Source: Anaerolineales bacterium
Lineage (GTDB): Bacteria > Chloroflexota > Anaerolineae > Anaerolineales > Villigracilaceae
Assembly (NCBI GenBank): GCA_919902735.1
Contig: CAKKRM010000218.1
Location: 1-46,767 of the forward strand
Direction of reading: 5' to 3'
DNA: 46,767 nt
The notes under the pieces were generated by a model, which made no database searches, was not told the origin of the DNA, and saw nothing but the letters and a program-made list of their open reading frames with translations. Positions within the stretch are counted from its first letter, which is position 1. Each line of letters starts with the position of its first letter. Below are positions 8,028 through 45,949 of this stretch, piece by piece. The translations under genes were made by a program, and so were the position numbers.

Positions 8028-8636
8028 CTAGCCCATAATTCCCTTCCACAACTGGTATAACCCAAACCCAAGCAGCGTAATGGACGATATGCCCAACAAG
8101 GCGCGGTTGAACTTTGGTCCCAACTTTGCCGCGGTTCCAAAGATGATCACGATTGCAGCCAGGCCGCCGACCAATGTGAAGTAAAACCCCGCCAGAAAGC
8201 CAAGCCCATTCACAGGAGACTCGCGCCAGCCCGCCAAAAGAATCGGGCCAGTCACCAGAGTCCAAAAAATATATGCGCCAGGACTGAGCATATTCGTCAA
8301 GGCGGCTTTGAGGATGTTTTGATGGTCTGAAATTTCAGGCGAGGTTTGATGTTCATCAAAATTGCGCCATGCTTTTAATGCGCCGTATGACAAATATAAA
8401 ATAAATACCCCGCCTGCAACGTAAAGGATTCTTTGCAGCCATTCGGGAACCTGGGTGAGTACCAAAACACTAAGCAGGATGATAGGGCCGTCACTGACCA
8501 GCGGCGCGAGGGCAGCGGGCAGAGCGCGCTTCCAACCGCGGGTAAGAGTCTGGGAAATCAGGTAGGTTTGAAACGGTCCGGGCTGGGAGGCGGCGGCGAA
8601 GCCGTATCCAATGCCTTGCAGGAGATAGATCCACAT
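8028..8636 (-). CDS. LysE/RhtB-type membrane exporter
   Basis: The 202-residue protein is a six-helix membrane protein of the LysE/RhtB superfamily. The N-terminal helix with GFAAASQPGPFQTYLI matches the family's conserved G-x-x-PGP motif; LVSDGPIILLSVLVL and TNMLSPGAYIFWTLVTGP follow as in RhtB members. Such proteins export amino acids or other small molecules by proton exchange. Length is typical. It lies at the end of the minus-strand group, separated from the PPOX gene by an 84-bp MITE-like element that now occupies its whole upstream region. The substrate is unknown. Confidence 0.85.
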   Translation of the reverse strand: MWIYLLQGIGYGFAAASQPGPFQTYLISQTLTRGWKRALPAALAPLVSDGPIILLSVLVLTQVPEWLQRILYVAGGVFILYLSYGALKAWRNFDEHQTSPEISDHQNILKAALTNMLSPGAYIFWTLVTGPILLAGWRESPVNGLGFLAGFYFTLVGGLAAIVIIFGTAAKLGPKFNRALLGISSITLLGFGLYQLWKGIMG

Positions 8637-8639
8637 AAT

Positions 8640-8737
8640 TTATTAACTCACCTTACGCGAAACGTCCCGAAGGTTTGAGCGAAAAACCAGCCTGAATTAC
8701 GAAAACCTTCGGGACGGTGCGTAACATCAGTTATTAA
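8640..8737. mobile_element. MITE-like 84-bp element, copy A, with 7-bp target duplication
   Basis: The element is 8647-8730, flanked on both sides by TTATTAA (8640-8646 and 8731-8737). Its ends CTCACCTTACGC and, reversed, CTGATGTTACGC are imperfect terminal inverted repeats. An inner hairpin is formed by CGTCCCGAAGGTT and its complement (8663-8716). The right target duplication contains the stop codon of the PPOX gene. A second copy lies at 17857-17940. No coding capacity. Confidence 0.85.
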
Positions 8738-9222
8738 TCGTCGAAAACAAACTTCGTGGGGTTCTCGAAGAACTTCGTCCAGGCCAGGCATTGACGGGGA
8801 GTGAAAACGTACAAGCCGCCTTCGTCCCACTGAGATGGTTTGGGGGCGTAGCCGTCCGATTCGTATTTCGCGCAGTAGACTGCCGATAGTCGTTGTGCCA
8901 GCTCCAGGCTTGGTTTGGAGGCGGGTTGTGAATTTCCTTCCATGATGACCACGTCATTTCCGCTTTCGAGATGCAAAGTCACATTTGGATTCTTTTCCAG
9001 ATTTTTAGCATGACGTGTTTCGGGACTGCCATCGTAAAAAAGTTTGCCATCCAAAAATGCGCCCCAGCGCGGGACGACGTGCGGGCGGCCATCGGGATAG
9101 ACCGAGCACAACCAATAGTTAATCGATTCGGCCAATCGCTTTTCGACATGCTCCCACGGCACTTCCGAGATCGGGTGATCCACATAGCCTTTGGGCAGTT
9201 TGGGACGAATGATCGTTGGCAT
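8734..9222 (-). CDS. PPOX-family flavin/F420-binding protein (pyridoxamine 5'-phosphate oxidase-like)
   Basis: This 162-residue protein has the split-barrel PPOX features: YWLCSVYPDGRPHVVPRWGAFLDGK near the start is the typical first strands, followed by SPETRHAKNLEKNPNVTLHLESG and a C-terminal FTPRQCLAWTKF, the tail where the family packs against the cofactor. Members bind FMN or F420 and reduce or oxidise small molecules. The start codon is one base after the protease stop codon, so the two are probably cotranscribed. The substrate and the choice of cofactor cannot be read from sequence by eye. Confidence 0.82.
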   Translation of the reverse strand: MPTIIRPKLPKGYVDHPISEVPWEHVEKRLAESINYWLCSVYPDGRPHVVPRWGAFLDGKLFYDGSPETRHAKNLEKNPNVTLHLESGNDVVIMEGNSQPASKPSLELAQRLSAVYCAKYESDGYAPKPSQWDEGGLYVFTPRQCLAWTKFFENPTKFVFDD

Positions 9223-9223
9223 T

Positions 9224-11542
9224 TTATTTTTCCAATGCTTTTTTCACAGCTTCATACACATCTACAACACCATAGCCAAAAGCATTGCTGGGAGTATTGC
9301 CCGTAAAGCATCCAACTGATGTATCGCCTGCGTAAGGCTGGGCCGTATCGATGATGAGTTGTTCGGTTGCATCAATGTCGCCGATCAAATCTGGCTGGGC
9401 AGACCAGATCAATGCCACCACGCCCACCAAATGCGGACCCGCCATCGAAGTACCGCTGAACGAGCCATAGGTATTTTCAGGAAGCGAAGAGAGAATATCC
9501 ACACCAGGGGCGACGATATCGGGTTTATTGCGGCCTGAACCATCGGCAGTGACGGGGCCGCGGCTGCTGAACGGGGCCATGTCGCCGAACTGGTCAATTG
9601 CGCCAACAGAAAAGACAGAGTCGTACAAAGACAACGGCGATTCAACCGTTTCACAATTCGGCCCATCATTGCCAGTGGAGACCACCACGAAGATACCCGC
9701 ATCGCGCAAGTTATCCACCGCGTATAGCAAGGCATTCGGGTCACAGCCTTCAATGGAAGGGCAGCCCCATGAATTATTCATCACATGCACGGCCTGGGTT
9801 GGGTCGCCATCAAACAGCGGATCGCCGCCCAGCGGAAAGGGCGCGAGCATGAATTGCATACAATCCAGATACAAGGCGGGGTTGGCAAGGTTTCTATCAA
9901 GGTTCACACATCCGATCCATTGCGCTTTGGGAGCGACGCCGATTCCGCCGCTACCCAAAATCGTGCCCATCGTGTGCGTGCCGTGCCCGCCTTCATCGTT
10001 CGGGGACGTGGTCGCATCCCAGGGGTCGAACCAGTTGTAATCATCGCCTGAGTTGACGCCGCGATATTGTTTCGCAATCGCGGGGTGATTCCCATCCACG
10101 CCCGAATCAGACTGCCCGACGATAATGCCTGCGCCTTGCACGTTGAATTCATCCCAGACTTTGTCCGCGCCGATCATGGAAATGTTCCACTGCACGCTGC
10201 CGTCTGTTTGAGATAAATATCCAGGCGAAGGAGAATCTTCGGGAGCGGCACGCAGGCGCGGGCTTGGAATGACGCGCTCCACTTCGGGGCGGGTCAGCAG
10301 GTAGAGTCGCACCAACATCCCGCCGCGCACTTCCATCGCGTTCTCCAAATAATACGGCGTGTACTCCACGCCCACCGCATCAAAAAATTTTCGCATCTCG
10401 GCCTGGGTTGTGTTTGCATGTTCGGTCAATTGTTCGTAGGCCAAAGCCAACCTTGTATCGCGGTCTTCGATCTCGGCCACGGCAGAAATATCGGCCTGAT
10501 CTTTTAAGATGACAAAAAGCCTGTCGCCATAATTTCCTGGATTGCCAAACATAAAGAAGATGGCGATAACGGAAAGCCATACCACGCCAGCCCCCGCCCA
10601 ACCGACGGCTCGCTTCACATCCGCGCCCGCGCCTGCCACGTTTATCTGACGCAGAATCAACGCTACGACACTCGTCCCCCACCCAATCAACAACCCAATG
10701 CCAACGGACTTGGTTGCCAGCCCCGCAATATCGCCGAGGACAATTGTTAATTCGGTCGGGTCAAAAAATGCGAGCGCGGCAAACGCAAGGATGCCCGCCG
10801 CTGTGCCCGCTGCAACGCGCGAAGGCAAGACCGCCGCAATCGCAAACGAAAACGCGGGCACAAGCACGAGCAATAAACGCTGTGAGCCGTCATACCCAAA
10901 GACGGATGCGAGCAACGCCAGCGCCGCGCCCACGCCAACGCCATTGAGCAAAACATTTTCGGTTGAGTCAAAGATCAACACCGCCGCAAGGAAACCAAAT
11001 GCCAAGCCTGCCAGCAAGCTGAGAAACGCATCGCCAAACGAACCAAACGAGCCATAAATTGCCAGCGGCGCAATGCCAATGCCCGCCACCAACAAACCGA
11101 ACGGAAGCGCGCCGCCATCCCAAACAATTTGGTTTTTGCGAAAACGAATCATAATGAAGACCGCGATCAACGCGATCACAATTTGAATGATCGAACCCAG
11201 TTGATCGTTGTTCGGGCCAAGCGTCCGCAGCAACAAGGCAGGGAATGCCATCAACGATGCGCCGAACAAACCCGCATACACAGGTTTGAAACGCTCATCA
11301 TTTGTGAAACGCCATAACAACCCAGTGACGAGTGCCATCACAATGCCTTGCGCTGTCAAACCGATCGGACCCGCCCAGGCTAAATTTTTTGCGCTCGAGG
11401 AAATGATTGCATCCTGTTCCATTGTCCACAATACGTAGTGATAGATGTACAAACACAATGGCATTGGCAATGCAAAGAGCAAAAAGATCACCAGCGCACC
11501 CATGGAACGGTTTTGCGGTTGGATTATTGATTCGCTTTCCAT
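9224..11542 (-). CDS. Membrane-anchored subtilisin-like (S8) serine protease
   Basis: The 772-residue protein is a fusion in one chain of a large N-terminal membrane domain (roughly ten hydrophobic segments up to about residue 345) and a C-terminal S8 peptidase. The catalytic triad is visible: Asp about 479 in SDSGVDGNHP, His about 520 in GGHGTHTMG and Ser about 699 in FSGTSMAGPH, with the oxyanion-hole Asn in VVSTGNDGPN. The start is placed at the ATG at 11542 because AAGGAGA lies 7 bases upstream; the longer frame begins in a palindrome. No cleavable signal peptide or obvious propeptide is seen, though residues about 350-455 before the peptidase could act as one. The role of the multi-pass domain is unknown. 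Confidence 0.88.
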   Translation of the reverse strand: MESESIIQPQNRSMGALVIFLLFALPMPLCLYIYHYVLWTMEQDAIISSSAKNLAWAGPIGLTAQGIVMALVTGLLWRFTNDERFKPVYAGLFGASLMAFPALLLRTLGPNNDQLGSIIQIVIALIAVFIMIRFRKNQIVWDGGALPFGLLVAGIGIAPLAIYGSFGSFGDAFLSLLAGLAFGFLAAVLIFDSTENVLLNGVGVGAALALLASVFGYDGSQRLLLVLVPAFSFAIAAVLPSRVAAGTAAGILAFAALAFFDPTELTIVLGDIAGLATKSVGIGLLIGWGTSVVALILRQINVAGAGADVKRAVGWAGAGVVWLSVIAIFFMFGNPGNYGDRLFVILKDQADISAVAEIEDRDTRLALAYEQLTEHANTTQAEMRKFFDAVGVEYTPYYLENAMEVRGGMLVRLYLLTRPEVERVIPSPRLRAAPEDSPSPGYLSQTDGSVQWNISMIGADKVWDEFNVQGAGIIVGQSDSGVDGNHPAIAKQYRGVNSGDDYNWFDPWDATTSPNDEGGHGTHTMGTILGSGGIGVAPKAQWIGCVNLDRNLANPALYLDCMQFMLAPFPLGGDPLFDGDPTQAVHVMNNSWGCPSIEGCDPNALLYAVDNLRDAGIFVVVSTGNDGPNCETVESPLSLYDSVFSVGAIDQFGDMAPFSSRGPVTADGSGRNKPDIVAPGVDILSSLPENTYGSFSGTSMAGPHLVGVVALIWSAQPDLIGDIDATEQLIIDTAQPYAGDTSVGCFTGNTPSNAFGYGVVDVYEAVKKALEK

Positions 11543-11561
11543 TTTTGTCTCCTTGTTTTGA

Positions 11562-11602
11562 GCGTGTTGCGTGTTCCGTAAAAGACGGAACACGCAACAC
11601 GC
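11562..11602. repeat. Perfect hairpin built from heptamers upstream of the protease gene
   Basis: GCGTGTT twice plus CCGT, a 5-base loop and the exact complement give an 18-bp stem. It fills the gap between the YczE-like gene and the protease. No T run follows on either strand, so it is not a standard terminator; it may act as a processing or mRNA-stability element. Confidence 0.85.
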
Positions 11603-11607
11603 AATAT

Positions 11608-12264
11608 TTACTCCGCGCCGCCTTCAACGCCTGCCACAACTTCCTCATCCATCGGCTTGTGCGGCTGGACTTTGAATATTTTAAATCCCAACTGCACCGA
11701 TGGGCCAACCAAGATGGCATACGCCAGCGTACCAAATCCCACAGGCCCGCCCAATAACCAGCCAATCGTTACAACGGTCACTTCAATGATCGCACGCGCC
11801 GCGCGGATACTGATGCCCGTGGTGCGTTTGATCGCCAGCATCATGCTGTCGCGCGGGCCTGCGCCCGCATCCACGCCGATGTAAATCGCGCTGGCGAGGC
11901 CCATCAAAAAGACAGCCAGCAATAACATGCCGATCTGCAAAGGCAGATTATCTCTCACCGATGGAACAATCGAAAGCCAGAAATCCTCCCACGGCCCAAT
12001 CGACAAAATATTTGCCAGCGTGCCCCAGCCCATTTTTTCGCGCATCAACACCGCGCCCGTCAACACAAAAAAACCCATCAGCACCGTCATCGTTCCAATG
12101 GAGATACCGATCTTTTGCGCCAACGCAACTTCCAACACTGCCCACGCGCTCGTCCCAATATTGCCGCGGATCATCAGCGTGATCGCCAGCCCAAACAAAA
12201 AGAATCCCACCTGGATTCTAAGAAAATCTTTAATGAACGTATTCCATCGAATTGGTTTTAACAT
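11608..12264 (-). CDS. YczE/YitT-like integral membrane protein
   Basis: The 218-residue protein has five or six hydrophobic segments and reads like the YczE family: FFLFGLAITLMIRGNIGTSAW at the start, a central AGPRDSMMLAIKRTTGISIRAAR and the late LLGGPVGFGTLAYAILVGP. The function of YczE-like proteins is poorly known. The ATG at 12264 is preferred because GAGGAGA lies 5 bases upstream; the frame runs on to 12303 in a palindromic repeat. It is the first gene of the minus-strand group with the protease, PPOX protein and exporter. Confidence 0.82.
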   Translation of the reverse strand: MLKPIRWNTFIKDFLRIQVGFFLFGLAITLMIRGNIGTSAWAVLEVALAQKIGISIGTMTVLMGFFVLTGAVLMREKMGWGTLANILSIGPWEDFWLSIVPSVRDNLPLQIGMLLLAVFLMGLASAIYIGVDAGAGPRDSMMLAIKRTTGISIRAARAIIEVTVVTIGWLLGGPVGFGTLAYAILVGPSVQLGFKIFKVQPHKPMDEEVVAGVEGGAE

Positions 12265-12281
12265 TATTCTCCTCAAAAGTA

Positions 12282-12400
12282 TGTCGTTGCGAGGAGGATG
12301 CACTTCCCGACGACACTTGCGCCGCGCGCAGTGCGGTGAGCAATCCCCGTCACAGTATAGGAGATTGCTTCGTCAGGCTGAAGCCTTCCTCGCAATGACA
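12282..12400. repeat. CATTGCGAGG-type palindrome, copy 1
   Basis: The outer arms TGTCGTTGCGAGGA and TCCTCGCAATGACA pair, with inner GCAATC / GATTGCTTCG blocks and a small nested GC-rich hairpin. It fills the divergent intergenic region between the YczE-like gene and the rRNA methyltransferase gene, so any promoter must lie inside or beside it. Confidence 0.85.
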
Positions 12401-12454
12401 TGATGTCGGTGATGATACCATGCCCAGCATAATATGCTGTGATAAACTCGCCCC

Positions 12455-13642
12455 ATGAACCTCACCATCAAACCTGGACGTGAAAAAAGTTTACTGCGAC
12501 GCCATCCCTGGGTCTTTGCCAGCGCGATTCAACCATTTGACTCACCCATCGCCTCAGGCTCGACCGTTGACCTGCTTGCCCCAAATGGCAGTTTCCTCGC
12601 CCGGGCATCCTACTCCCCTATCTCACAAATCCGCGCCCGTGTGTGGACGTTTATCGACGAACCGATTGATAAAGAATTCTTTCGCAGAAAAATCAAAGCT
12701 GCAATTGAGGTGCGTCGAAGGTTGCAAGTTGAAGGTCGAAGCGATTCGTATCGTTTGATTCATAGCGAATCTGATAACCTCCCTGGTTTTGTTGTAGATC
12801 AATATAAAGATGTCCTCGTTTTGCAATCCACAACCGCAGGCTCCGAATTCTGGAAAGACAGCATCGCCGATATTTTGGTTGAAGAAACAGGCATCCAAAA
12901 CATCTACGAACGCTCCGATGTGGATGTGCGCGAACTCGAAGGCTTGAAGCCCATCACAGGAATTCTACGCGGCGCAATCTCCAGTCTCCAGTCTCCAATT
13001 ACGAATTACGAGTATGGCCTGAAATTTCGGGTTGACCTGGAACACGGCCACAAGACCGGCTTCTATCTCGACCAGCGCGAAAACCGTCACCGCGTCGGTG
13101 AACTCGCCAAAGACCGCGATGTATTGAATTGCTTCTGCTACACTGGCGGATTTTCGATCCACGCACTGGCAAATGGAGCCAAGTCCGTGCTGTCTGTGGA
13201 TTCATCCGCCGATGCGCTGGCTTTGCTGGAAGAAAATATCGCCATCAACAGCCTACCCGCTGACAAACACACATCCCTCGAAGGCGATGTTTTTCAACTG
13301 CTGCGAAAATTCCGCGACGAAAACCGCTCCTTCGATATGATCATTCTTGACCCGCCGAAATTCGCTCCCACCGCCGCCCATGCCGAAAAAGCCTCGCGCG
13401 CCTACAAAGATATCAACCTGCTGGCTTTCAAGTTATTACGACATGGCGGCATCCTCGCAACCTTCTCCTGCTCCGGCGGCGTGGATGCGGCTCTCTTCCA
13501 AAAAATCGTCGCCTCCGCCGCATTGGATGCAGGCACGGAAGCGACGATCATCGAGCATTTGTCACAGGCAGGCGATCACCCTGTCAGTTTGCATTTTCCA
13601 GAGGGCGCGTATTTGAAGGGGTTGATTTGTGTGAAGGGGTAA
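12455..13642 (+). CDS. RlmI-like 23S rRNA (cytosine-C5) methyltransferase
   Basis: The 395-residue protein has a PUA-like N-terminal domain (KPGREKSLLRRHPWVFASAI), an RlmI/RlmK connector (YRLIHSESDNLPGFVVDQY) and a Rossmann methyltransferase domain with HKTGFYLDQRENR, NCFCYTGGFSIHA and ILDPPKFAP. RlmI-type enzymes methylate a cytosine in 23S rRNA using S-adenosylmethionine; FSCSGGV carries the late cysteine. Two regions are encoded by 7-nt-periodic DNA: residues 87-95 and 174-187 (AISSLQSPITNYEY), the second exactly 42 bases and so neutral for the frame. The start lies just after a weak -10-like GATAAA with no Shine-Dalgarno, suggesting a leaderless message. The exact target base is inferred. 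Confidence 0.88.
   Translation: MNLTIKPGREKSLLRRHPWVFASAIQPFDSPIASGSTVDLLAPNGSFLARASYSPISQIRARVWTFIDEPIDKEFFRRKIKAAIEVRRRLQVEGRSDSYRLIHSESDNLPGFVVDQYKDVLVLQSTTAGSEFWKDSIADILVEETGIQNIYERSDVDVRELEGLKPITGILRGAISSLQSPITNYEYGLKFRVDLEHGHKTGFYLDQRENRHRVGELAKDRDVLNCFCYTGGFSIHALANGAKSVLSVDSSADALALLEENIAINSLPADKHTSLEGDVFQLLRKFRDENRSFDMIILDPPKFAPTAAHAEKASRAYKDINLLAFKLLRHGGILATFSCSGGVDAALFQKIVASAALDAGTEATIIEHLSQAGDHPVSLHFPEGAYLKGLICVKG
12714..12741. repeat. 7-nt-periodic array in the rRNA methyltransferase gene (first)
   Basis: Units GTCGAAG, GTTGCAA, GTTGAAG, GTCGAAG. The unit GTTGAAG is the same as in the murG array. Confidence 0.65.
12974..13015. repeat. 7-nt-periodic array in the rRNA methyltransferase gene (second)
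   Basis: Six units: GCAATCT, CCAGTCT twice, CCAATTA, CGAATTA, CGAGTAT. The 42 bases encode 14 residues lying between the connector and the methyltransferase core. Confidence 0.8.
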
Positions 13643-14902
13643 CTAAAGTTTTATTTTTGTCTTCAAGTAGGAACGCAGTTTTACAGGCTTGATTCCGCTA
13701 AAGTCGAATTTCTTTGCACCGATCATGCCGGCGAATCGTTTCAAGCCATTGGCGAGGGCGTTGGCGAAGGCTTCATCTTTGGGGGCGTCGTCTTCGAGCC
13801 AGAAACCGAGGATATGAAGGGTGTTTGTCGTGCGGTCGAGCTTGGGGTCGAGGCGGGCAACGAGATCGTCGCCGTATAAAATGGGCAGGGTGTAATATCC
13901 CCAGCGGCGTTGATGGGCGGGCTTGTACACTTCCCACAGATATTCAAAGTCGAAAACTTTTTTCGCGCGTCCCCTGGCGCTGACAATTTCCAACGGCGCG
14001 AGGAAGGTGACCTCTTCATCCGTTGTTGGACCCTTTGGCTTCCATACTTTGGGAATATGCCCCGCCTCCAATGCGGACAGATGGGACTGGTCGCTGTTCA
14101 AGATGAGGAATCCATCCTTTGAGCCTTCCACTCCAACCCGCAAAACAATACCCTGCTCGACAAGTTGCTGGGTCAATCTTTTTGCTTCGTCCCGAGAAAC
14201 ATCCTTATGAAGGTAATAGGAAAGTTCTGTACCCAGGCGGTTTTCCCGCATCATTCCCAGAAAGGCGATGATTTTCCTGCTCATAAAGTCAATCGTTTCT
14301 TTTTCAGTTGCCGCATAATCAAACTCTGACGGCACAACCCGTTCGCGCAAGTCGTAGATGCGGTCAAAGCCTTTGCGATTGGAGATCATTACTTCACCCG
14401 TTAACCAAAGGTAGAAGAGGGCAACGGAAGTTTCCTTGCGCCCGCGGTAACTCCATGCTTTTACTTTCGCGCCTTCAAAGTCCCTGCTTCCCAATGGACC
14501 GCGATCCCGCAGTTCATCCAGCACAAACTTAACTAAATCGGCAGGAGGATGCTTGAATGATTCGTAATTAATTCCCTTCTGCTGGCGATGTTTCATGTGC
14601 AAACGCCAGTATGGAAAATCGCTCATGGGATACATCATCAACCAGCCGCCGTAATCGAAGGCTTTGCGTTTTTCATATGCCATTTTATACAAATGGTCGG
14701 GCTTGTAATTCAACACGCGGCCATACATGGCAATGTCCTGGCTGCGCGCCACCATGACCAGCGGATCGAGTTGAAGCGCCTGCATCTGGCGCAAAGCGGA
14801 TTCGGCGCCGAGCGGCCCTTCGAAACGGCGGCCAGGCCAAAGGGCCTGGGAGGCGAGCAGGAAGCGGCGATAGGTTTGTTTTGAGATGGAGTCAATCGTC
14901 AT
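13643..14902 (-). CDS. YcaQ/AlkZ-family winged-helix DNA glycosylase
   Basis: The 419-residue protein matches the HTH_42 family. The N-terminal LGAESALRQMQALQLDPLVMVARSQD contains the Q-x-D catalytic motif (QLD) of the YcaQ branch, rather than the Q-x-Q of AlkZ. The middle SRDFEGAKVKAWSYRGRKETSVALFYLWLTGEV is a winged-helix block and HQRRWGYYTLPILYGDDLVARLDPK is the conserved C-terminal signature. These enzymes unhook DNA interstrand crosslinks and remove alkylated bases. The gene starts 2 bases after the HD-GYP stop codon, so the two are likely cotranscribed. Its stop codon abuts that of the rRNA methyltransferase gene without a base between them. Confidence 0.87.
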   Translation of the reverse strand: MTIDSISKQTYRRFLLASQALWPGRRFEGPLGAESALRQMQALQLDPLVMVARSQDIAMYGRVLNYKPDHLYKMAYEKRKAFDYGGWLMMYPMSDFPYWRLHMKHRQQKGINYESFKHPPADLVKFVLDELRDRGPLGSRDFEGAKVKAWSYRGRKETSVALFYLWLTGEVMISNRKGFDRIYDLRERVVPSEFDYAATEKETIDFMSRKIIAFLGMMRENRLGTELSYYLHKDVSRDEAKRLTQQLVEQGIVLRVGVEGSKDGFLILNSDQSHLSALEAGHIPKVWKPKGPTTDEEVTFLAPLEIVSARGRAKKVFDFEYLWEVYKPAHQRRWGYYTLPILYGDDLVARLDPKLDRTTNTLHILGFWLEDDAPKDEAFANALANGLKRFAGMIGAKKFDFSGIKPVKLRSYLKTKIKL

Positions 14903-14904
14903 GG

Positions 14905-17736
14905 TTAACCGTTAAGTTCCTTGATCGTTTTTAAAAATATTTCCACAAGCTGCGGGTCGAAATGTTTTCCGCTTTGTTTCTTGATATATGCCAGCGCCTT
15001 CTTTTTTGTCCACGCCTTGCGGTATGGGCGTGAACTCGTGAGCGCGTCCCAAACATCCACCACTGCAAAGATGCGCGCAACGAGCGGAATCTGTTCGCCT
15101 TTGAGTCCGCGCGGGTAGCCTGTGCCGTTCCATTTTTCGTGATGGCAACAGGGAATGTCCAAAGCCTGGCGCAAATAGGCGATGGGTTGCAGCATTTGGA
15201 GAGCCAGCGTGGGATGCAGGCGCATGGCCTCCCATTCTTTTTGTGTCAATGCGCCTTTTTTGAGCAGGATTTTATCGGAGACGCCCATCTTGCCAATATC
15301 ATGTAAAAGCGCGCCGCGGCGGATATGCTGAAGCTCGTTATCGTGTATCCCAACAACCTTTGCCAGCGTCATGGTCAATTCGGTGACGCGCCGTGTGTGG
15401 CCTTCGGTTTCCTTATCGCGCAGGTCCAGCGCGCGCGACCAGCCTTCGATGGTGGCTTCGTAGGCGATGGCGAGTTCCATATTCACCCGCTGGACGTTGT
15501 CGAACATTTGGGTGTTGTCGATTGTGATGGCGGCCTGCCCCGCGAGGGTTTCGAGGAAATCAAGCCATTCATCGCTGGGAGTAAATTCCGAGCGGTGATA
15601 AACCTCCATCACCCCTTTTACATCCCCTTTGGCAATGAGGGGGATGCAATAATAACTTTTGAATTCCTCCTCGGCCCATAAACGGGCAAAAGACGGGTTG
15701 TCAATTATTTGAGCAGGGCCAGAGATTTGAATGACGCGGCGCTCCATAACGGCGCGCCCGGCATATTTATCGTTCAGGTGAACATCGGCGCCTTCGATCA
15801 TGTGCGTGCGGAATCCGCGCCCTGCGGAATAGCGCAAGGCTTGTTCATCCGCGCGAAGTATCAACACATCGGCAGCATCCACCTTCAATTGAGTGACGAC
15901 ATGATTAAGCAGGATGTTCAAGGTAATATTCAGGTCGAGGCTGGAGGTAATTGCCTTGTCTATGATACGCAGGGTTTGCAAATGCTGAAGGCGGTGAATG
16001 GCTTCGTCGCGCAGGCGCGCCGAGTGGATGGCCCCCGCCGCCTGAGATGCGAACAGCGAAAGCAGGCGTTCATCTGCTTCGGTAAATTTGCGCTCGGAGT
16101 CGCCGATTTCATCCACCGTCAGAACGCCGATCAATTCACCGCCATAAAGCATGGGCACTTCAAGCACGGCGCGGATGCGAAAATCTTCATATTTTGCCGA
16201 ACGGCCTTCCCATGTTGAATAATCGTCAATGCGCAGGGGCTTGCGGGTTTGCACCACCCGCCCTGCCACCCCTTCCCCAATTTGCAGGCGGATACCAGAC
16301 GGGATATAGGGTTCGGTATCCATTTCCAATTCAAGTTCCTTACTGGCGGGGATGAATAAATACATTCCGCTGGATGTCGAGTTAAGCAGTTTTTTGGCGG
16401 CTCCCACAATCACATGCAGCATGGTATCCAATTCAGTCTCGGCAGAGAGAGCGCTGCTGGTTTCATACAAGGAAGCAAATTCCATGGCGCGCCGCGCGGT
16501 CTCGTCGAACAATTTGGTGCGGTGTAATATGGCCCCCGCGATTTCAGCCAGTGAATTCAGCAGTTTCATTTGCTCCGCATTGATCTGGCGCGGCAGTTGC
16601 ACTGAGATAAAAAATACTCCCACAATTTCAGAACCTGTCCGTATGGGCAAACAGGCTCCGCCCCAGCCTGCCGGGATTTTACTGCGAGAGTTGGGATGAG
16701 TTAAAGCATCGCTTACAAACTCAACAGACAGGTGAGCCTGGCCAGTTACAAAAACCGTTCCAGCAATGCCCTCGCCTGCTTTGATATTAATATCTTCGAT
16801 ATCCTCAAACCACCCGCGCGGATGGGTATCCCGCAAATCGTTGGTTTCGGGGTTATAAAGCAGGATCGTGCCCGTATCCGTTCCAACGGCGGCCAGGGTT
16901 TGATCGAGCAAAATGGGCAGGGCTTCATCGAAGGTTTGCACCGTCCGCAGAGAAGCCGAGACGTTGTACAAAGACTCCAGTTCCAGCAATCTCTGGCGAA
17001 GAGATTCTTCGGAGCGTTTGCGCTCGGTAATATCGCGCAGCATCCCTTCGTGATAGATAATATCCCCCCGCTCATCATGCACATAATAACCGTGGTCTTC
17101 CACCCAAATCTCGGAGCCATCCTTGCGGCGCATTCGATACGCCTCGATCTCCTGCTGGCCCGTATCCAAAATATGGCTGCCCCGCTCTTCGGGCGCAAAA
17201 TAAAGCTCCCGCTTAATATCAATTTCCAGCATTTCCTCTTTGGAGGAATACCCAAACATCTTCACCATGGCAGGGTTAACATCGATAAACCTGCCTTCAT
17301 GCGTGCTGCGATAAATCCCGTCAATCATATTTTCGAACAGCGAGCGGTAACGCTCCTCCGACTCGCGCAAGGCGGCATCCATCTGCTCGCGCCCGTTAAC
17401 ATCGTGGATGACGGAAAGATTGACAGCCTTTCCATTTATGTGGATTTGGGAAACATGCGCCTCGATTGTGCGGATTTCCCCACTGGCAAGTTTATGTTGA
17501 AAAACAGGATACTTGCGCTCCCCCTCCGCCGACAGTTGACCGGGCAAATGGGCATTGATCTTCGCTCTATCCATTCCCCGCAATTCAGCGAGGGTATATC
17601 CATAAAATTTTTCAGCCGCCGGGTTTGCATCCAAAATCCGCCCTGACTCTGGTTCGATCAGAAGCATGACTGCATCATGTCTCCTGAAAACATCAAGAAA
17701 CGTATCATCCTTCGCTGTGAGGTCTCCATCTGACAT
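14905..17736 (-). CDS. PAS-PAS-GAF-GAF-GAF-HD-GYP signalling protein, probable cyclic-di-GMP phosphodiesterase
   Basis: The 943 residues hold two PAS domains (about 14-118 and 128-245, the second ending in a PAC motif DITERKRSEESL), three GAF domains (about 262-410, 425-580 and 600-745) and a C-terminal HD-GYP domain. The last has EGHTRRV, HDIGKMG and HHEKWNGTGYPRG, all residues expected for an active two- or three-iron phosphodiesterase. No membrane segment, receiver or GGDEF domain is seen, so it is a soluble multi-sensor enzyme. The ATG is preceded by AGGAGA. Ligands of the sensor domains are unknown; the enzymatic role is inferred from the intact motifs. Confidence 0.93.
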   Translation of the reverse strand: MSDGDLTAKDDTFLDVFRRHDAVMLLIEPESGRILDANPAAEKFYGYTLAELRGMDRAKINAHLPGQLSAEGERKYPVFQHKLASGEIRTIEAHVSQIHINGKAVNLSVIHDVNGREQMDAALRESEERYRSLFENMIDGIYRSTHEGRFIDVNPAMVKMFGYSSKEEMLEIDIKRELYFAPEERGSHILDTGQQEIEAYRMRRKDGSEIWVEDHGYYVHDERGDIIYHEGMLRDITERKRSEESLRQRLLELESLYNVSASLRTVQTFDEALPILLDQTLAAVGTDTGTILLYNPETNDLRDTHPRGWFEDIEDINIKAGEGIAGTVFVTGQAHLSVEFVSDALTHPNSRSKIPAGWGGACLPIRTGSEIVGVFFISVQLPRQINAEQMKLLNSLAEIAGAILHRTKLFDETARRAMEFASLYETSSALSAETELDTMLHVIVGAAKKLLNSTSSGMYLFIPASKELELEMDTEPYIPSGIRLQIGEGVAGRVVQTRKPLRIDDYSTWEGRSAKYEDFRIRAVLEVPMLYGGELIGVLTVDEIGDSERKFTEADERLLSLFASQAAGAIHSARLRDEAIHRLQHLQTLRIIDKAITSSLDLNITLNILLNHVVTQLKVDAADVLILRADEQALRYSAGRGFRTHMIEGADVHLNDKYAGRAVMERRVIQISGPAQIIDNPSFARLWAEEEFKSYYCIPLIAKGDVKGVMEVYHRSEFTPSDEWLDFLETLAGQAAITIDNTQMFDNVQRVNMELAIAYEATIEGWSRALDLRDKETEGHTRRVTELTMTLAKVVGIHDNELQHIRRGALLHDIGKMGVSDKILLKKGALTQKEWEAMRLHPTLALQMLQPIAYLRQALDIPCCHHEKWNGTGYPRGLKGEQIPLVARIFAVVDVWDALTSSRPYRKAWTKKKALAYIKKQSGKHFDPQLVEIFLKTIKELNG

Positions 17737-17849
17737 CAGATTCTCCTGCCACCATTAATACTTCCCTTCCTCTCCTCCATCCTGTCAACCATAAAATACG
17801 CACAAAAAACCGACAACTCAATTGATCATCGGTTTATCGAGAAAACGAA

Positions 17850-17947
17850 TTAATCACTGATGTTACGCACCGTCCCGAAGGTTTGGGCTACAAACCAGCT
17901 TGATTTACGAGAACCTTCGGGACGTTTCGCGTAAGGTGAGTTAATCA
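17850..17947. mobile_element. MITE-like 84-bp element, copy B, with 7-bp target duplication
   Basis: The element is 17857-17940, flanked by TTAATCA on both sides (17850-17856 and 17941-17947). Its outer arms are the reverse complement of copy A's arms, but the 54-bp inner core (17871-17924) runs in the same direction as in copy A with 48 of 54 bases identical. The core is therefore inverted relative to the ends. The right duplication includes the stop codon of the 63-residue membrane protein gene. Confidence 0.85.
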
Positions 17948-18132
17948 TCGTTCAGGGAGGCAATCGCCCTCAAAAGACCGAAGACCAGCACACCCAATTT
18001 CAATCCTTCGCCAGTGGTGATGGCCGTTTCGCGTTCGTTCCGTTCGGCGCGGCGCGAAAGGAGCATCGCGGCAATGAGACCGGTCAGCGCGCCGACCAAT
18101 GCGCCGCTGAGTATGATTCTGGTTTTGTTCAT
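17941..18132 (-). CDS. Small membrane protein of unknown function
   Basis: The 63-residue protein has a first hydrophobic helix with small-residue spacing (GALVGALTGLIAAMLL), a charged middle (SRRAERNERE) and a second short hydrophobic stretch (LGVLVFGLLRAIASL). I do not recognise a family. Its ATG overlaps the stop codon of the upstream 141-residue membrane protein (ATGA), which argues that it is real and translated together with it. The stop codon lies in the target duplication of MITE copy B. Confidence 0.6.
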   Translation of the reverse strand: MNKTRIILSGALVGALTGLIAAMLLSRRAERNERETAITTGEGLKLGVLVFGLLRAIASLNDD

Positions 18133-18554
18133 GGTGTCATCCTTCCAAAAAATGCTTTGATGCTTTCAAGCCAGCCGTCCAACGCGAAGATGGGTTTGGC
18201 CGCCATATCCGCCGCGCGGACGATATATCCGCGCGCCTTGTAGACATAATCCTGCGCGATGCCGGTGTAGTACGGCAAGCCCTGCAAGGCACGCGCCATT
18301 AAATAGATCAGCCCAATCAGAACAAGGAGAAAAATCAACCCCGCAAGCAAAATGGGAATGACGATCCAGATCGTAGAAATCGCCGCCCAGCGGCCCACGT
18401 CCCCGCCCTGGTTGAAGGTGGCGAGGCTGATCAACACGACCAAGCCAACCAGCGCCACTGCGCTCAGGATGATGGGCAAAATGATCTGCGTGTTGCGCTG
18501 CTTGCGGTGCAGTTGATAGGAGTAATGTTCGGATTGGGGGAGTTTGGCTTTCAT
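18129..18554 (-). CDS. Membrane protein of unknown function
   Basis: The 141-residue protein has two strong membrane helices (about 22-46 and 58-86), a short N-terminal basic region and an amphipathic C-terminal part (ARGYIVRAADMAAKPIFALDGW). I do not recognise a family. The ATG at 18554 is preferred; the frame could start at a TTG at 18578, but that codon lies beside the ftsZ terminator. It is followed by an overlapping 63-residue membrane protein gene. Position directly after ftsZ is suggestive, but a terminator separates the two. Confidence 0.65.
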   Translation of the reverse strand: MKAKLPQSEHYSYQLHRKQRNTQIILPIILSAVALVGLVVLISLATFNQGGDVGRWAAISTIWIVIPILLAGLIFLLVLIGLIYLMARALQGLPYYTGIAQDYVYKARGYIVRAADMAAKPIFALDGWLESIKAFFGRMTP

Positions 18555-45139: not shown

Positions 45140-45949
45140 TTAATTACCGACGAGGATTTCAACATCCGCGCTCATGCCCCAGAGCAAACCAGCGGGCTGC
45201 TGGTCGAAGTCAATCGTCACTTTGTAGACCACGTCGCCGCCAAGCGTGGTGGAGATGCGCGCAACGTCTGTCACTTTGCCGGTAAATTCTTCATTCAATG
45301 CTTCGATGAATACGCCGGCGGTTTGCCCAATTTTTACATTCGGCACATCGCGTTCGCTCAAGTCTGTTGTTTCGATGCGGAAGCCGCCGAGATCACCCAG
45401 CACAATCACAACCTTGCCAGGCGTCACTGTTTCAGCGGAGGAAATATCCACAGTCACAACCGTACCAGCAAACGGCGCAGTGAGCTGCGATTGCGCGTTC
45501 AAGGTCGCGTTGGCAGAATCAACCAAGGCCTGTGCGCGGGCCACATCCGCCCCGGCAAGTTCGAGATGCTTTTCATCGGCGCCCATGCGAATTAAATATT
45601 TCACTTGAATTTCTGCGACTGCAAGGTTTGATTCCGCCTCGTTGACTTTGGCTTCCAGAATCGCAGTATCCAACTCGATGAGGATTTGCCCCGCCTCGAC
45701 CACATCCCCAACCTGCACGTTGACCGAAGTGACTCGGCCAACGCTGGTGAACGAAAGACGCGCCTCAGCCTTCGGGACAACTGTTCCCGTGGCGGAGACA
45801 GAATCTCCGCTGTTGGTTTGCGGAACGTTCGCTGAGGATTGTCCATCCTCCAAAGAAATAGTGGGAATGGCTTCGGGTGTGCCGGGTTGTCCACAGGCGG
45901 ATAAAGCAAGCGCGAAAATACTTACGATAATCCAAAACTCTTTTTTCAT
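45140..45949 (-). CDS. Lipoprotein HlyD/MacA-like adaptor of an ABC transporter (first of two)
   Basis: The 269-residue protein has a lipoprotein signal (ALALSACGQPG, lipobox LSAC), the biotinyl-lipoyl halves (VNVQVGDVVEAGQILIELDT and LTAPFAGTVVTVDISS), a short coiled hairpin (ANATLNAQ region) and a beta-barrel part (VFIEALNEEFTGKVTDVARI). It matches the downstream adaptor in order and in motifs such as DLSERDVPNVKIGQ versus DLGERDILRVKIGQ, so the two arose by duplication. It starts 17 bases after the ATPase gene. Confidence 0.87.
   Translation of the reverse strand: MKKEFWIIVSIFALALSACGQPGTPEAIPTISLEDGQSSANVPQTNSGDSVSATGTVVPKAEARLSFTSVGRVTSVNVQVGDVVEAGQILIELDTAILEAKVNEAESNLAVAEIQVKYLIRMGADEKHLELAGADVARAQALVDSANATLNAQSQLTAPFAGTVVTVDISSAETVTPGKVVIVLGDLGGFRIETTDLSERDVPNVKIGQTAGVFIEALNEEFTGKVTDVARISTTLGGDVVYKVTIDFDQQPAGLLWGMSADVEILVGN

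Follow-up and report, generated by a model that had tools for sequence, protein, structure and literature searches.

A hairpin module shared by several kinds of miniature transposon in Anaerolineales, with its loop inverted in some copies

The 46,767-nucleotide contig CAKKRM010000218.1 of an Anaerolineales bacterium (assembly GCA_919902735.1; Chloroflexota, Villigracilaceae), called the window below, carries two short elements, copy 1 and copy 2, both of which are miniature inverted-repeat transposable elements (MITEs) from a family of 84-bp non-autonomous transposons. Their core, a hairpin made of two 13-bp arms and a loop, is a module of its own that is also present in three other kinds of enclosing ends (hereafter ‘shells’; that of the window copies is shell A, the others are B, C and D). 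Copy 1 has the loop of this module inverted while its arms and flanks are unchanged, and so, separately, do D shells of a sister species. We consider it likely that these non-autonomous transposons contain a portable hairpin and that its spacer now and then inverts, probably through a template switch from one arm to the other. The ends of shell A and their 7-bp TTANTAA duplications are of a kind also found on full-length IS701-family elements, one of which lies in the same genus. G and L numbers are our labels for genomes and loci, and ‘own’ refers to the source assembly, a 4.26-Mb draft in 356 contigs.

Two window copies with oppositely oriented cores

Copies 1 (8647-8730, plus strand) and 2 (17857-17940, opposite strand) are each 84 bp long and are bordered by direct repeats of their own, TTATTAA/TTATTAA and TTAATCA/TTAATCA respectively. 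Read from the same end, the two copies have identical ends (16/16 positions on the left, 14/14 on the right) and identical 13-bp arms, but their 54-bp cores agree at only 34/54 positions directly against 48/54 with one of them reverse-complemented, and the 28-nt loops at 8/28 directly against 22/28 when flipped. On folding, each copy beat 200/200 shuffles (z of -4.8 and -5.1 for copies 1 and 2). An earlier note, made from the letters of the window, had described this 84-bp pair, its 7-bp repeats and the flipped core correctly to the base, and had placed both insertions at the stop codon of a minus-strand gene, in agreement with the frames at 8734-9222 (copy 1) and 17941-18132 (copy 2).

The hairpin as a module of several shells

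The module consists of the arms CGTCCCGAAGGTT and AACCTTCGGGACG around a loop of about 25-30 nt, and the hairpin is usually preceded by AA and followed by GT; this polar flank is present in 159 of the 175 exact hairpins of three genomes (63/71, 50/57 and 46/47, the numerators coming from an arm-gap limit of 36 and the denominators from a limit of 40). Two exact 13-bp arms 20-40 bp apart occur 96 times in the own draft and 0 times in a reversed control. Exact hairpins were found in 13 of 400 genomes of the phylum, all 13 belonging to the window's own family (13 of 25 sampled members). Named records with these arms, one mismatch being allowed, are from Anaerolineaceae (L233), a record titled Herpetosiphon (L239) and a metagenome bin of doubtful title recorded as Borreliella (L199), and two viral contigs (L495, L496) hold the exact hairpin pattern. 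The arms are strictly conserved: among 122 distinct hairpin sequences (12 bp of flank counted), 111 have the consensus in both arms, 4 carry the same change in both and 7 are changed on one side.

Besides A, the same hairpin occupies at least three further shell kinds. Shell B (GGGTGTGTTTCA) is bordered by a 9-bp repeat in 12/25 cases, by repeats of other lengths in 7/25 and by none in 6/25, and shell D (GTATCTTCTCAA) by an 8-bp repeat in 4/9, by 7 or 9 bp in 4/9 and by none in 1/9, one-base shifts being allowed in both counts and the D count including L449 twice and two 7-bp cases that are runs of A. Since these border repeats are mostly 9 and 8 bp, B and D would imply transposition systems other than that of A. 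Shell C (TAGACTTTATCGG) has no repeat of at least 4 bp in 16/22 cases, so there is no consistent long repeat. The A ends, in turn, enclose at least eight different, mostly palindromic cores in the loci fetched from the own genome, namely the CGTCCCGAAGGTT hairpin, GTCGTTGCGAG/AAGCAATCTCC, CGCCCTGAGCG/GAAGGGTCTCT, CGCAAAGACGCGAAGG, GCGGTACC with CCTGAGCCTGCCGAAGG, CACAGAGTTCACAGAGA, ACCAGATAC/GCCATATCTGG and GACCCCGAAGGGG. K-mer clustering of the cores put most shells into one chained group and was not used for these counts.

Composite arrangements are also present. In the own genome, L114 (C205) is from position 1466 a chimera in which the left end and loop are C-type and the right end, with TTATTAA after it, is A-type; L049 has its right arm replaced, and L101 and L025 hold an extra short palindrome inside an arm. 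In the sister genome G080, L321 and L335 show nesting, with an A shell enclosing another palindrome, this a B shell and this in turn the hairpin, and in L442 a D element lies inside a C-shell end. No A, B, C or D shell lacking the hairpin was seen in the fetched loci, a result of little weight for B, C and D, most of whose loci were picked through the hairpin itself; separate insertion of the hairpin into empty shells was set aside as an account of the module.

One tentative possibility is that the hairpin is a passenger of these parasites, a polar module that has made its way into the MITEs of several unrelated transposases and travels with the shell around it, its loop flipping and diverging whilst its arms are held constant through recognition by a host or element protein. 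Neither arm sequence was found in print in the literature searched, where the five papers that contain an end string were, by title, on unrelated subjects.

Orientation of the loop within its shell

Loop orientation was considered in a set of 139 distinct hairpins, in which either arm could carry one mismatch and 20 bp of flank served to separate one hairpin from another; identical elements with like repeats may therefore have merged. With the shell called from either flank at three mismatches or fewer, 114 fitted shells A-D and 25 fitted none and were left unscored, as was the L114 chimera, leaving 113. Relative to their own shell, 4/113 are flipped: 1/65 in A, 0/23 in B, 0/14 in C and 3/11 in D. 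The sole flipped A-shell hairpin is window copy 1, and because the other 64 scored A hairpins share one orientation it is copy 1, and not copy 2, that is inverted. Averaged over its five best matches among the other A-shell loops, the copy-1 loop reaches 16.0 in flipped and 4.6 in direct orientation; for the set of 28 distinct A loops the values are 14.4 and 3.4, and 0/1000 shuffles of the copy-1 loop reached either this flipped score or this difference.

The flipped D shells are all from the sister species G080. Two, L442 and L443, are clear: their loop is the reverse of the D loops of L112, L115 and L458 (own), L429 (G080) and L449 and L453 (G367), the flanks being alike. As L442 and L443 have a common flipped loop but different 8-bp repeats, the flipped D form appears to have been copied to a second site. 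By eye, the CTCGA-like part of the loop faces AA in shells A, B and D but GT in shell C, as might be expected from an old inversion.

These results uphold the earlier note's reading that a core was inverted inside an element, and extend it to the sister species. It had also held that a single core orientation in all other copies, together with an assembly artefact as the source of the flip here, would tell against this; such uniformity was found within shell A, where no other scored copy is flipped, but not among the D shells. Its further suggestion that ends and core recombine independently is borne out by at least eight cores per end pair, at least four shells per hairpin and the L114 chimera.

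An assembly error at copy 1 seems hardly credible, although the draft to which the window belongs is split into 356 contigs and is rich in near-identical repeats: the copy-1 loop is unlike the other loops collected, so that no piece of these has been misplaced there, the ends and duplications of copy 1 are intact, and the same kind of flip occurs in another genome (G080). We also think it very unlikely that a dedicated invertase or other site-specific recombinase acts at the 13-bp arms and uses the loop as a switch. Strict arm conservation, exact hairpins in 13/25 sampled family genomes, the polar AA/GT flank and the inversion cited for the Correia MITEs of Neisseria (PMC10969869) would all suit such a system, but a working switch is expected to give mixed orientations, and flips are rare. 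The companion genes looked for were IS701 and Y1 transposases.

A more serious alternative, though in our view a rather doubtful one, is that the core of copy 1 came from an oppositely oriented hairpin, through recombination or gene conversion at the identical 13-bp arms. Such arms are plentiful, with 96 exact hairpins in the own genome, and exchange at arms seems to occur, as in the L114 chimera, the replaced right arm of L049 and the extra palindromes within arms of L101 and L025. However, arms of 13 bp are short for homologous exchange; none of the collected hairpins has a nearly identical loop that would mark it as the donor, the best match to the 28 distinct A loops being 22/28; and the flipped A and the clear flipped D hairpins carry loops of their own shell's kind.

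Shell A and its relation to IS701-family elements

Searching the genome for further copies of the whole element, as had been proposed with the pair, gave, with scoring confined to the best 40 of 326 first-look candidates, 78 rows at about 40 places, most of them matching on both strands. For the end motif CTCACCTTACGCAG there are 110 occurrences in the own genome and 0 in the control. Shell A is present as many dispersed copies without coding capacity; 96 A shells were counted in the own loci fetched and 31 in those of G080, and an exact 7-bp repeat borders 73/96 and 14/31 of them respectively, the remainder having one or two mismatches and end pairs with more than two having been left out. 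The consensus of the target repeat is TTANTAA, and tandem A shells are frequent, neighbours having one repeat in common.

The shell A end type, CTSACCTTACGC, and its TTANTAA target are shared with some full-length IS701-family elements. A 1157-bp element of Chitinophagales (L184) has CTSACCTTACGC-type ends and encodes a 358-aa transposase matching NCBIfam NF049921 (transpos_IS701_2) at 316.7 bits, and in the window's genus a 1114-bp element of G406 (L470) has ends of the same type, one deviating at its first base, and its 357-aa transposase scores 345 bits; the cut-off of the model is 250 bits and both frames are open. Their target repeats are TTAATAA, exact, in L184 and TTATTAC/TTATTAA, with one mismatch, in L470. 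A full-length element with the same ends and a transposase, which it had been proposed to look for, therefore exists. L464 (G415) also has CTSACCTTACGC-type ends, with an apparent 8-bp repeat, TGATTTAA. A search of 14 genomes with NF049921 gave matches in 8, of which 3 were above the cut-off, and in the own genome only two transposase fragments were found (L250, L251), both adjoining A-type ends. In G080, L465 contains at 1461-2158 a 697-bp deletion derivative of an IS701-type element with exact TTAATAA repeats, which is a step between insertion sequence and MITE.

The same ends reach far beyond Chloroflexota. A scan of named genomes for repeat plus end, in which the pattern itself required the repeat on one side, gave at least 109 stretches, and in 80 of these there were 35 end pairs in 32 loci with 7-bp repeats equal or one base apart (three of the 35 being overlapping readings in L197). 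The record titles include Chloroflexi, Ignavibacteria, Bacteroidetes, Chlamydiae, Leptospirales, Treponema, Campylobacterales, Armatimonadetes, Patescibacteria and Cloacimonadota. In L147, L169, L182, L187, L207 and others, TTANTAA-flanked like ends enclose different cores in elements of 84-364 bp from many phyla, and such elements are a very widely spread MITE set of one IS701-type group.

Insertion sites

The earlier note had pointed out that both copies lie at stop codons. That this is meaningful is not supported: 19/80 own shells with enough flank lie at a stop codon and so do 4/29 unoccupied TTANTAA sites from the same loci, and stop codons as a targeting signal were rejected in favour of a consequence of the target.

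The gene beside copy 1 has a match in 26 of 57 same-genus genomes, the own included. At the orthologous site of G406 (L254) no element separates the gene from its neighbour, and in G080 the same stop codon is followed by a shell with another core, its near repeat intact and its far repeat degraded; the end sequence beside this stop codon is CTGATG in the own genome and CTCACC in G080. At four places examined (own 0, 7, 9 and 58) both genomes have a shell with different cores, coincidences that give no rate since only G080 loci picked by their ends were compared. The window holds four TTANTAA matches, two of which are the copy-1 duplication. As the ends at the copy-1 site differ together with the core and TTANTAA is scarce, repeated insertion into the same scarce site is a simpler account of these coincidences than in-situ swapping of cores, which we rejected.

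How the loop may invert

For the reading we favour, in which the spacer of a portable hairpin inverts in place, the hairpin would stall replication and the polymerase would switch template between the 13-bp arms; processing of a cruciform could provide the same step. Template switching would also hold the two arms of a hairpin alike. Shell A would be moved in trans by an IS701-family transposase, the flipped element presumably still being able to move, and modules may be shuffled among shells through strand exchange at the common arms and through nested insertion. There is precedent for the inversion itself: in yeast, template switching between inverted repeats homogenizes the arms and inverts spacers (PMC8604942), and in the plastid trnH-psbA region a 25-27-bp spacer between 18-bp repeats inverts within species (PMC2903610). 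In both, as here, a short spacer is inverted and the arms are unchanged; those cases, however, are single chromosomal sites, whereas the flipped hairpin here lies inside a transposable element and one flipped form occurs at two sites.

Several points weigh against this explanation. The spacers inverted in yeast are of a few bases only, far below 28 (PMC8604942). Template switching accounts for alike arms within one hairpin but not for one arm sequence across shells and genera, for which common descent, exchange or selection has to be invoked, and exchange with an oppositely oriented hairpin would look like inversion in place. The flip inside shell A is seen in one copy only, no otherwise identical pair differing only by the flip was present among the collected hairpins (no other A loop matches that of copy 1 at more than 22/28 positions), the third flipped D hairpin, L444, is a weaker call (6.3 flipped, 1.6 direct), and 25/139 hairpins fit none of the four shells. 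The proposed link between IS701-family transposases and the MITEs is drawn from ends and target only; L462 and L463 match NF049921 strongly and lack A-type ends, and ISTth8, an IS701 element, has a 4-bp repeat (PMC6352166) where A shells have 7 bp.

Relation to known elements

The usual description of a MITE is that of a decayed copy of a single parent transposon. In the present elements the ends have a history apart from that of the core: a single set of ends surrounds many palindromes across many phyla, and a single palindrome recurs in several kinds of shell. A modular build of exchangeable sub-elements is also a feature of the BOX elements of Streptococcus, which the present elements resemble in this respect. 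Within the IS701 family, the NF049921 subgroup includes 1.1-kb elements with like ends and TTANTAA-type duplications, of which the MITEs keep the ends only, and the 7-bp duplication sets them apart from ISTth8 with its 4 bp (PMC6352166). Bacterial MITE kinds include RUP, NEMIS and ERIC (PMC3733652), which are likewise short, noncoding and hairpin-forming, with terminal repeats and target duplications; the difference lies in one end pair around many cores and in one core that several MITE kinds share although their border repeats differ.

Inversion of a bacterial MITE is, as such, not new, since it is cited in a review for the Correia repeat enclosed elements of Neisseria (PMC10969869), and apart from this citation nothing fitting core inversion in bacterial MITEs was among the literature matches listed. 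Here only the 28-nt loop is inverted, and not the arms or ends. Inverted loops offer countable events of hairpin rearrangement within bacterial mobile DNA, and constant arms with changing loops pose the question of what recognises the arms.

It is improbable that the hairpin is a repetitive extragenic palindromic (REP)-like element moved by a Y1 transposase (REP-associated tyrosine transposase, RAYT) and inserted into MITEs. Y1 transposase genes are present in 13 of 14 genomes searched, with four matches in the own genome; GTAG/CGTC REPs are likewise high-copy palindromes, REP dimers inside longer palindromes have been reported (PMC3733652), and the arm here begins with CGTC. Against this, the hairpin arm was found in 0/20 Y1 loci (about 2-3.4 kb each, one of the 20 being from the own genome), and a RAYT-moved REP is not supported. 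CGTC-tagged REPs have a CGTC-type tag, an 8-9-bp stem with a 4-5-nt loop and a short tail, mostly CCA (PMC3733652); the hairpin, whose 13-bp arms contain no such stem and loop, whose own loop is about 25-30 nt and which has no CCA tail, does not fit this build.

Features of the window

The elements and the neighbouring gene used as a synteny marker are given in Table 1. Rfam gave 0 matches above the gathering score over window positions 8400-18200. A lone arm-like match with two changes, TGTCCCGAAGGCT, lies at 45767-45779 on the minus strand, with no second arm-like match nearby.

Table 1. Positions of the two shell A elements and associated features in the window.
Feature	Position	Strand	Remark
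7-bp target duplication TTATTAA, copy 1 left	8640..8646	.	TTANTAA consensus
Left end of shell A, CTCACCTTACGCGAAA, terminal repeat of IS701-family type	8647..8662	+	like ends on full-length IS701-family elements
Hairpin arm, 13 bp, CGTCCCGAAGGTT, copy 1	8663..8675	+	
28-nt loop, copy 1	8676..8703	+	inverted relative to the ends, compared with 64 other scored A-shell hairpins
Hairpin arm, 13 bp, AACCTTCGGGACG, copy 1	8704..8716	+	
Right end of shell A, GTGCGTAACATCAG, copy 1	8717..8730	+	
7-bp target duplication, copy 1 right	8731..8737	.	contains stop codon of 8734-9222(-)
162-aa gene, pyridoxamine-phosphate-oxidase-like (PF01243)	8734..9222	-	stop inside duplication; synteny marker
7-bp target duplication TTAATCA, copy 2	17850..17856	.	
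Right end of shell A, copy 2	17857..17870	-	minus strand reads GTGCGTAACATCAG
Hairpin arm, 13 bp, copy 2	17871..17883	-	
28-nt loop, copy 2	17884..17911	-	common orientation
Hairpin arm, 13 bp, copy 2	17912..17924	-	
Left end of shell A, copy 2	17925..17940	-	minus strand reads CTCACCTTACGCGAAA
7-bp target duplication, copy 2	17941..17947	.	contains stop codon of 17941-18132(-)

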